A stretch of 56,356 nt of DNA from positions 1 through 56,356 of the forward strand of contig JAAUTY010000027.1 of NCBI GenBank assembly GCA_012031265.1, written 5' to 3'. Positions 991-51,869 of the stretch are shown in pieces. Under the pieces are notes generated by a model. That model ran no database searches. It was not told the origin of the DNA and was given only the letters and a program-made list of their open reading frames with translations. The first letter of the stretch is position 1. Every line of letters starts with the position of its first letter. This DNA is from Spirulinaceae cyanobacterium SM2_1_0 (GTDB lineage Bacteria; Cyanobacteriota; Cyanobacteriia; Cyanobacteriales; Spirulinaceae). A program made the translations under genes and the position numbers.

Positions 991-1128
991 GGGAGCATCC
1001 CACTTTGGCGTTACGGTTCCCCTCATCCCCCAACCCCTTCTCCCAAGCTGGGCGAAGGGGAGCTAGAAGTCCCTCTCCCAGCTTGGGAGAGGGATTTAGG
1101 GTAAGGGTTTCCAAACTGGGATGCTCCC
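991..1128. mobile_element. family B MITE-like element with 8-bp target duplication
   Basis: A 138-bp non-coding element between perfect 12-bp terminal inverted repeats, GGGAGCATCCCA and TGGGATGCTCCC (17 of 18 positions match if extended). The 8-bp sequence GTTAGCCC directly flanks it on both sides (983-990 and 1129-1136), as expected for a target-site duplication. The interior has two further inverted segments (CCCAAGCTGGG and CCCAGCTTGGG). It encodes no protein. Diverged copies lie at 18051, 39562 and 43969. It fills most of the gap between rplU and the next gene. Confidence 0.85.
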
Positions 1129-23315: not shown

Positions 23316-23341
23316 GTAGGCGCGGTCAGGCATGAACCTAG

Positions 23342-23430
23342 TACCGCTACGCGGAATTTTGAGTTCTGAGTGCCTGCAATACGGGAATCTTGGGGATTTT
23401 GAATGGGCATCTCATTTCCGCCGCCTTGGA
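23342..23430 (+). mobile_element. family A MITE-like element
   Basis: An 89-bp copy of family A: left end TACCGCTACGCGGA, right end TCATTTCCGCCGCCTTGGA, flanked by CTAG on both sides (23338-23341 and 23431-23434). The interior is the short subtype shared with 49923. It starts about 25 bp after the ribbon-helix-helix gene. Confidence 0.75.
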
Positions 23431-23652
23431 CTAGGTGCATGGGGCGATCGCGGTGCTTAGGCGGATGAGGATGAATAGGAACATTTGCCGGGGTGAAAGT
23501 GGCTCAGTCCCAGATGCTAACTGGGTTTCAGACATTTTGCTTTCTAATTCCGGGAATTGTAATTATCGGTATTAGGCTATAGCTGCGATCACCCTAGTCC
23601 GCAAGCAAAGCCATATCATGGACATAAAATTGGCACTTTGAGGATTGTGGCG

Positions 23653-43968: not shown

Positions 43969-44259
43969 GGGAGCATCCCAGTTTGGCAACCCTACGTTCC
44001 TACGGCACAGACGCCGCCAACACCCTAAATCGCTCTCCCAAGCTGGGAGAGGGACTTCTAGTACAAGGCGGCGGAAATGAGATCCCCATTCAGGATCCGT
44101 AGGATGCCTGTACTGTCTGCACTCAAAACTCAGAACTCAAAATTCCGCGTAGCGGTACTAGCTCCCCCGCGCCTAGCTTGGGAGGAGGGGCTGGAGGATG
44201 TAGACGCGCAGCGGCTGCTCGCAGAGTGGGGAACCGTAACGCCGAAGTGGGATGCACCC
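43969..44259. mobile_element. family B element interrupted by a family A element
   Basis: The left terminal repeat is GGGAGCATCCCAGTTTGG; the right end is CGAAGTGGGATGCACCC. In between lie the CTCTCCCAAGCTGGGAGAGG hairpin, then family A at 44062-44157, then CCTAGCTTGGGAGGAGGGG, GTAGACGCGCAGCGGCTGCT and GAACCGTAACGCC. Removing the insert and one CTAG restores ACTTCTAGCTCCC, exactly as in the uninterrupted copy at 1060-1074 (other strand). No clear outer target duplication remains. Confidence 0.85.
44062..44157 (-). mobile_element. family A MITE-like element inserted in a family B element
   Basis: A 96-bp copy in reverse orientation, from TACAAGGCGGCGGAAATGAG to CCGCGTAGCGGTA, flanked by CTAG at 44058-44061 and 44158-44161. 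The host family B copy at 991-1128 has a single CTAG at the matching site (1063-1066), which fixes the element ends and shows a 4-bp duplication. The interior is nearly identical to the copy at 50023. Confidence 0.9.
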
Positions 44260-49316: not shown

Positions 49317-49922
49317 ATGCAAAGTCCTGACAATCGCTCGATTGCGAGCGAACTAAGACTCCAAGCCACGATTCTCGGTGCCTTTGTCGCCATCTTCTGG
49401 GGACTGGAAATCGCCGATCAGCTGGTCTTTCAAAATCTCATTCGCGACGGGCTGGACAACTTTGGCATTCAATCCTGGCGTCCCAGCGGCGTCCAAGGCA
49501 TTCTCTTCGCCCCTTTTCTCCACGGTGGCTTCGGTCATCTGATTGCCAACACCGTGCCCTTTGTCGTCTTGGGCTGGCTCGTGATGTTGCAAGCCACTCA
49601 AGACTTCTTCATTGTCACCGGCATCACCATGCTCATCGCCGGGATTGGCACTTGGCTGTTTGGCGCGCCCGGTTCGATCCACATTGGGGCGAGCAGCCTG
49701 GTTTTTGGCTACCTCGGCTTTTTGCTGCTACGCGGCTACTTCGAGCGCAATGTCACCTCGATTCTGATGTCGATTTTGGTCTTCTCGCTCTACGGCGGCG
49801 TGATCTGGGGCGTATTCCCGCAGGGACCGGGAATTTCCTGGCAAGGGCATCTGTTTGGTTTTATTGGCGGCATCCTGGCAGCGCGTTGGATTGGCAAGGC
49901 GCGACGCGCCCTGCGCGACTAG
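49317..49922 (+). CDS. rhomboid family intramembrane serine protease
   Basis: A 201-residue membrane protein with about six TM helices. The core has FAPFLHGGFGHLIANTVPF (~60-80), the HxxxN oxyanion-type motif, the serine loop IHIGASSLVFGYLGFLLL (GxS, ~125) and the catalytic His in ISWQGHLFGFIGGILAARW (~180). These fit a functional rhomboid, which cuts TM substrates within the membrane. The stop TAG is part of the CTAG that flanks the first family A element downstream, so the transcript would run directly into two elements. Confidence 0.87.
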   Translation: MQSPDNRSIASELRLQATILGAFVAIFWGLEIADQLVFQNLIRDGLDNFGIQSWRPSGVQGILFAPFLHGGFGHLIANTVPFVVLGWLVMLQATQDFFIVTGITMLIAGIGTWLFGAPGSIHIGASSLVFGYLGFLLLRGYFERNVTSILMSILVFSLYGGVIWGVFPQGPGISWQGHLFGFIGGILAARWIGKARRALRD

Positions 49923-50018
49923 TACGGCTGCGCGGAGTTCTGAATTTTGAGTTCTAAGTACTGGCAATACGGGAATTCTGGGGATTTTGAATAGGTCTCT
50001 CATTTCCGCCGTCTTGTA
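49923..50018 (+). mobile_element. family A MITE-like element, first of a tandem pair
   Basis: A 96-bp element from TACGGCTGCGCGGA to CATTTCCGCCGTCTTGTA between CTAG 49919-49922 and CTAG 50019-50022. Its interior belongs to the subtype of 23342. The left CTAG contains the rhomboid stop codon. Confidence 0.88.
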
Positions 50019-50022
50019 CTAG

Positions 50023-50118
50023 TACCGCTACGCGGAGTTTTGAGTTTTGAGTGATGAGTGCAGACAATACAGGCATCCTACGGCTCCTGAATGGGCATCT
50101 CATTTCCGCCGTCTTGTA
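50023..50118 (+). mobile_element. family A MITE-like element, second of a tandem pair
   Basis: A 96-bp element from TACCGCTACGCGGA to CATTTCCGCCGTCTTGTA between CTAG 50019-50022 (shared with the first copy) and CTAG 50119-50122. The interior belongs to the other subtype (GCAGACAATACAGGCATCC), like 44062, so the pair did not arise by simple duplication of one copy. Confidence 0.88.
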
Positions 50119-50122
50119 CTAG

Positions 50123-51754: not shown

Positions 51755-51759
51755 GCTAG

Positions 51760-51869
51760 TACTGCTACGCAGAGTGGTGAGTTTTGAGTGATGAGTTTCG
51801 CGTGATGATTGTCTGCAATCTGGGCAGCTTGTGGATTTTGAAGAGGACGCTTATGGCTGTCTACGTGTA
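51760..51869 (+). mobile_element. diverged family A element
   Basis: CTAG at 51756-51759 precedes TACTGCTACGCAGAG, GAGTTTTGAGTGATGAG and GTGGATTTTGAAGAGG; the right end TGTCTACGTGTA runs into CTCG (a mutated CTAG). The element is ~110 bp and much more diverged than the other copies. It starts directly after the TPR gene stop codon. Confidence 0.65.

Follow-up and report, generated by a model that had tools for sequence, protein, structure and literature searches.

Family A, a short repeat that has split a copy of another repeat (family B), is very probably a non-autonomous MITE derived from insertion sequences of the IS630 family (Tc1/mariner-like), from a subfamily found almost only at CTAG. 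The window, which is the whole stretch of 56,356 nucleotides that was analyzed, is contig 130 of the draft genome of Spirulinaceae cyanobacterium SM2_1_0 (5.03 Mb, 149 contigs). One family B copy of the window is split at CTAG by a family A element, which is later than B. Across the genome family A has a high copy number, a nearly strict preference for CTAG, and lengths that form a ladder, and it has ends in common with the IS630 subfamily that shows the same CTAG habit. Some of the statistics come from an 853-kb sample consisting of the window and stretches of five long contigs; these contigs were known from lists of A matches and were chosen by length, not around single copies.

Features of the window, with positions counted from its first nucleotide
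Feature	Position	Strand	Remark
Family B copy split by A	43969..44259	+	191 bp without the 100-bp insertion
Uninterrupted family B copy	991..1128	-	Empty CTAG at 1063-1066
Family A element, nested	44061..44158	+	98 bp in the likely IS630 reading, GTAC...GTAC
Family A element if a 4-bp CTAG is duplicated	44062-44157		96 bp
TA of the left CTAG (44058-44061), putative target, left copy	44059..44060		TA reading follows IS630-group biology, from passages of PMC2170065
TA of the right CTAG (44158-44161), putative target, right copy	44159..44160
Left end of A	44061..44081	+	Up to 18/21 identical to the terminal repeat of CTAG-specific IS630 elements
Heptamer array ACTCAAA ACTCAGA ACTCAAA ATT	44121..44144	+	Whole-heptamer differences among copies
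Right end of A, CCGC-GTA-GCGG-TAC	44145..44158	+	Shortened, diverged terminal repeat
Two tandem family A copies	49919..50122	-	One CTAG (50019-50022) common to both
Family A copy	23338..23434	-	CTAG on either side; first bases altered, not counted full-length
Diverged, incomplete family A copy	51756..51864	-	Right end CTGC-GTA-GCAG

The interrupted B copy and its uninterrupted relatives show the order of events. The uninterrupted copy of the window matches one piece of the split copy (44061-44022) at 97.5% over 40 bp (E 2e-14) and another (44200-44158) at 86% over 43 bp (E 2e-9). The two arms overlap within B solely at the CTAG of the empty site, and the outer ends also match. Five B copies of the genome other than the split one, that of the window included, were aligned with the nest, and all of them lack the insert at the A site. 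The empty site reads CTAG in four of the five (the 991-1128 copy, C75:38681-38871, C75:191456-191615, and the left-truncated C92:148411-148550) and CTAA in the fifth (C92:110064-110202). The first of the C75 copies aligns from end to end with the nest and is 100 bp shorter (191 versus 291 bp). The overlap of the arms by CTAG and the five uninterrupted copies together indicate that A entered a pre-existing B, so the first-pass annotation was right both that B is interrupted here and that A moved after B. The composite is not a repeat unit in its own right, which that annotation had named as the alternative: among 58 A matches and 46 B matches (the latter merged into 30 places) in the 853 kb, the nest in the window is the only case of A within B.

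Family B may be a separate, older MITE. The uninterrupted copy of the window has the 8-bp direct repeat GTTAGCCC on both flanks, and the inverted ends of B read GGG(A/T)GCATCCCA. In the other B copies inspected a clear direct repeat of this kind is absent or imperfect.

The genome has roughly 300 copies of family A, a miniature transposon that targets CTAG almost exclusively. With up to three mismatches allowed, the right-end pattern has 301 matches genome-wide, versus 11 for the reversed control. A profile search of the 853 kb gave 58 A matches including fragments, and these cover 0.6% of the sequence. Thirty of them are full-length, three of which lie in the window. CTAG precedes all 30 full-length copies and follows 29, the remaining one having CTAA, which upholds the earlier description of A as a mobile repeat with CTAG as its target; copies without flanking CTAG, which would have spoken against it, are the exception. 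A second set of 37 copies from the same genome, mostly recruited via similarity to the window copy, has CTAG on the left in 37/37 and on the right in 36/37 (CTCG in the other). Sixty copies from other genomes were mostly picked with CTAG on the right, so that only their left flanks are free; CTAG is found there in 51/60, and the right-hand figure of 58/60 is biased by the search pattern. Thirty loci recruited by similarity have unrelated surroundings with CTAG adjoining A, and CTCG is the right flank of one second copy. CTAG accounts for only 1667 of the 4709 YTAR sites outside A in the 853 kb, which is why the preference can be called nearly strict. No matched pair of non-CTAG flanks was found in the 37 own and 60 other copies. 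Bases that deviate in the target are few, and they fall on outer and inner positions alike.

The duplicated target is likely the TA within CTAG, which would make A 98 bp long with GTAC...GTAC ends. The first-pass annotation gave exact A ends and a 4-bp CTAG duplication. These are one of two readings, since a TA duplication with an element that begins in G and ends in C yields identical letters at the nest, and what is known of IS630 favors a 2-bp duplication of the TA inside CTAG. Because the empty B site reads CTAG rather than GTAC, the register must be that of the TA within CTAG. In passages of PMC2170065, ISY100 of the IS630 group is described as inserting at TA and duplicating it, and transposases of the IS630/ISY100 type (Tc1/mariner group) as having helix-turn-helix motifs and a DDE domain.

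The left end of A ties it to one CTAG-specific subfamily of IS630 elements. The subfamily was recognized in genome G329, which has 6 A right ends and 14 near-identical DDE_3 transposase matches. Three copies fetched from it are 1.32 kb long; their ends read TAGTACACTTCGGCGTAAATAAGCC and TAGTACAGCACGGCGGAAATAAACC, and CTAG flanks them on either side. The transposase of one of them (L220) scores 196 bits on the NCBIfam IS630 model NF033545 (cut-off 100) and has the Pfam domain DDE_3. Transposases of this type are detected at E <= 1e-20 in 63 of 388 genomes of the order, with up to four candidates scored per genome, and the relatives are 45-88% identical by matched part. Twenty-nine elements with an L220-like transposase and readable ends are 0.88-1.43 kb long, and 28 of them have C-TA/TA-G flanks. 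These come from 27 of the 30 relatives' loci plus L202 and L211 (L239, L240, and L246 were left out for lack of usable ends); one genome contributed three of the 29, and the TA register was set by hand in L230, L231, and L233, where two were possible.

One subfamily end, GTACAGCACGGCGTAAATAAA, and one A left end are identical at 21/21 positions (L245 and L131). The better end of each of the 29 elements agrees with that left end at 11-21 of 21 positions (mean 16.9). For the left end of the window copy the mean is 14.6 of 21 and the best is 18/21; left ends of some A copies from other families are closer to the subfamily than the window type. As a control, 15 copies representing about seven other IS630 end types, several of them copies of one element, match the A left end at 5.5 positions of 21 (the window type at 4.6), versus 6.3 for shuffled letters, and 1/15 has C-TA/TA-G flanks. 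They were drawn from 34 IS630 loci (4 own, 30 others), of which 16 were dropped for want of clear ends and 3 belong to the subfamily. Since the other IS630 types have ends at chance level, A is tied to one subfamily. A search of 80 stretches upstream of right ends in ten other genomes found no close match to the L220 transposase and one remote match (L125, 26% identity), so the autonomous form was reached from the transposase side. The first-pass annotation proposed a search for complete insertion sequences with ends reading TACCGCTACGCGG; that motif is the divergent right end of A, and the transposase-type end is the left one. A link of A to IS630 was not met in the open papers searched, and this is not a claim of its absence from print.

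The reading frames of these transposases are often interrupted. In G329 (L202, L211, L220) 4 of the 14 copies have the full open frame of 418 codons, and 10 have 238-247 codons. The L202 transposase is split into two frames close to a single-base run, and many relatives in the subfamily break near residues 163-172. These breaks suggest programmed frameshifting.

The two ends of A are unequal, and its interior holds a heptamer array. Almost the whole terminal repeat is present at the left end, while the right end retains the outer GTAC and a GCGGAA block; in a full copy with ends equal to those of the window copy, the two agree at 11/20 positions only. The length between the flanks is 89-154 bp in 97 copies, and there is no transposase gene. 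All 37 own copies measure 89, 96, or 103 bp, as do 29 of the 30 full-length copies in the sample, the other being 105 bp; copies of 110 bp occur in other genomes, besides some other lengths. The step between most of these lengths is one internal heptamer (7 bp). Of the 20 period-7 arrays in the 853 kb, 13 overlap A; of the 7 that do not, 4 are at most about 120 bp from an A match. Arrays of periods 5 and 8 are absent, and there are five of period 6 and four of period 9, none inside A. The window has no match in Rfam at gathering scores.

A subfamily of A looks recently active. In the mostly similarity-chosen set 10 of 37 copies are identical to others at different places, and only 2 of the 30 full-length copies in the 853-kb sample are. 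The low figure in the sample indicates that most A copies are not very young, and the difference between the two sets points to a young subfamily amid older copies.

These features would fit a mechanism in which an IS630 transposase acts in trans, binding ends of the GTAC...GGCGGAAAT type and excising A. The element would then insert at the TA of a CTAG, and the TA would be duplicated, as the family would suggest. CTAG would be left on either side of each insertion, and later copies could adjoin earlier ones. Because each insertion restores CTAG on both sides, tandem A copies with a common CTAG would result, as at 49919-50122. The insertion into B would be one such event after B had arrived, and gain or loss of heptamers by the array would produce the ladder of 89, 96, 103, and 110 bp (between CTAGs). 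We infer that A moves in trans, that TA is the duplicated sequence, and that its driver in this genome was of the same IS630 subfamily.

The driver of A in its own genome is lost, hidden, or different. An autonomous partner is found alongside A in G329 and not in the source genome, where the claim for IS630 rests on the family across the order. No subfamily transposase was detected at E <= 1e-20 in the source genome or in 12 other genomes of the same family, and the L220 transposase matched none of the 40 contig starts (of 298 contig ends) searched in the source assembly. With a more sensitive profile the only hit in the source genome was a remote IS630 (L054, 1.7e-4), whose ends are unlike those of A. 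L054 (1220-2038, G000:C73) is an IS630-type element with CTAG flanks and the ends GTGCTCAGTCAAG, and it is the only one of the four own IS630 copies (L052-L055) with clear ends. It was considered as the driver and rejected, since its clear ends are not those of A.

Draft assemblies can hide such a driver, as is seen in genome G054, where at least four contigs (C3, C4, C20, C65) begin in the last codons of a subfamily IS630. At two loci of G054 (L263, L277) the IS630 end reads CTAG-TGCAGCGTGGCGAAAATAAG with differing flanks, which points to a multi-copy element collapsed in the assembly. Across the 388 genomes, 26 have both the right-end motif and the transposase, 72 the motif alone, 37 the transposase alone, and 253 neither. 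The association has an odds ratio of 2.5 (p 0.002, not corrected for kinship). Thus 72 of the 98 genomes with the motif have no detectable subfamily transposase, and 37 of the 63 transposase carriers have no motif. The looseness of the association implies that A outlives its drivers, that other transposases move it, or that drafts hide the drivers.

Other sources of the insertion are much less probable than an IS630 transposase. The first-pass annotation proposed a transposase of the IS5 or IS701 group with a 4-bp YTAR duplication. The pair of flanking CTAGs does read as such a duplication, and CTAG is a YTAR sequence; however, CTAG stands on both sides in 29/30 copies even though CTAA, TTAG, and TTAA make up 3042 of the 4709 sites. 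The search for these transposases covered the source genome. It found no DDE_Tnp_1 (IS4/IS5-type) match over the cut-off and one weak match below it, and the sole DDE_5 (IS701-type) copy, L056, has inverted repeats beginning AGATCTGCGACTTC and no adjoining CTAG. The idea that a transposase encoded elsewhere drives A remains likely, while the IS5/IS701 type is without support in the source genome, and the CTAG-sited elements with the A left end in related genomes are members of an IS630 subfamily. Together, these results and the existence of IS630 elements bearing A-type ends make an IS5 or IS701 driver very unlikely. Less probable still is an assembly artefact or copying through recombination. 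The draft state of the assembly, with its 149 contigs, could allow an artefact, but the 58 A matches in the 853 kb lie at varied sites, the full ones are bounded by CTAG, and five B copies are uninterrupted.

A Y1 (HUH) transposase of the IS200/IS605 or REP (RAYT) kind, recognizing the hairpin CCGC-NNN-GCGG and cutting beside CTAG, is improbable, though slightly less so than an IS5 or IS701 driver. The right end can fold into a small hairpin, and REP families have been reported in cyanobacteria in passages of PMC3733652. The exact stem is present in 36 of 44 right ends from the sample of the source genome, where the search did not demand a stem. The changes in the others are one double change (CTGC-GTA-GCAG), which is two-sided, six broken pairs, and one G-T pair. 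The loop differs between sites, in matches to a pattern that itself required the stem. However, by eye the left end shows no comparable hairpin, and its sequence agrees with IS630 ends. Among 30 loci fetched of 139 Y1 matches in 14 A-bearing genomes, no A right end lies within about 1.5 kb, and the sole left end (L088) is part of an IS630 fragment with an IS605 adjoining. The two Y1 genes of the source genome also have no A end nearby. One open frame of the source genome (L032, 706-2733 on the minus strand of G000:C99) combines a Y1/HUH transposase-like domain (residues 314-411) and a Type ISP restriction enzyme C-terminal specificity domain, the latter as two stretches of PF18135, the best at 469-648. 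At another locus (L031, 340-783 on the plus strand of G000:C32) an IS200-like Y1 gene lies close to the beginning of its contig. It is flanked by open frames that both contain ...HQALKCLANxESLLKQAK... and are possibly repeats of its own.

The origin of A from IS630 is of a known kind, and the closest parallel is RUP with IS630-Spn1. Passages of PMC3049150 describe RUP of Streptococcus pneumoniae as a 107-bp element, present in about 110 copies in one genome, with ends that resemble those of IS630-Spn1; the latter is presumed to move RUP in trans. S. pneumoniae commonly carries IS630-Spn1, whereas the partner of A was not found in its own genome; A also spans an order, contains a heptamer array, and is shortened at one end. 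The unusual points of A are its interior, its wide distribution, and the lack of any visible driver in this genome. Judging by its title, a 1991 paper by Tenzen and Ohtsubo reportedly described an IS630 transposon that prefers the TA of CTAG. In contrast to IS630 and ISY100, the subfamily described here has other end sequences and CTAG in 28/29 elements.

Several small repeats of cyanobacteria can be likened to A by description alone, not by sequence. Nezha is a cyanobacterial MITE of about 134 bp with 24-bp repeats. The Nostoc repeats of Elhai (2008) are said to be small and dispersed, often inside heptamer arrays or minitransposons. Nezha has been proposed, in passages of PMC3049150, to be moved by ISNpu3-like elements. 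The genome of Anabaena sp. 90 has 147 complete or partial MITEs of 77-541 bp, and in the relevant passages of PMC3542288 the authors saw no similarity to the IS ends of that genome. BrickBuilt of Porphyromonas gingivalis, as passages of PMC4596501 present it, is a MITE with a minisatellite of 19 copies. Like A it has a tandem-repeat interior, with a different unit (23 nt) and other ends.

Family A is widespread in the order. The right-end sequence CCGCNNNGCGGTACTAG, from a pattern that contains the hairpin stem and CTAG, is present in 98 of 388 genomes, and control patterns have 0 or 1 match per genome. Many copies in other genera have the layout CTAG-TACAnnnCGGCG(G/T)AAATAA...ACCATT, a variable middle, lineage-specific heptamers, and CCGCnnnGCGGTA-CTAG; others are solo right ends or diverged. 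The A copy of the window has no match among plasmids and phages, and a copy from another family matches 10 plasmid records (8 from Nostoc, 1 from Anabaena, and 1 from Brasilonema). Five genomes of one genus have an A-type right end at the same place (L060-L064, around 1501-1517). In the two that were examined (L060, L064) it lies between acyl carrier protein-like and fabF-like genes, named by eye, and the stop codon TAG of the first gene belongs to CTAG.

The analysis gives a driver class and an end structure to an abundant repeat that about a quarter of the sampled genomes of the order carry, and it ties most of the period-7 tandem arrays in the 853-kb sample to one mobile element. No matching transposase was found in the source genome with its hundreds of A copies, some of which are identical, so that it can be tested whether the driver was lost or a foreign one moves A. 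A bolder and rather doubtful proposal is that A, as one old IS630-driven element, is the main vehicle of heptamer arrays through the Cyanobacteriales, that the array, held to 7-bp steps, is a working part, and that transposases of foreign lineages still fire A. If so, the array would not be passive filler and might for example set the spacing between the two unequal ends, and transposases of other lineages would fire A even after the host had lost its own.
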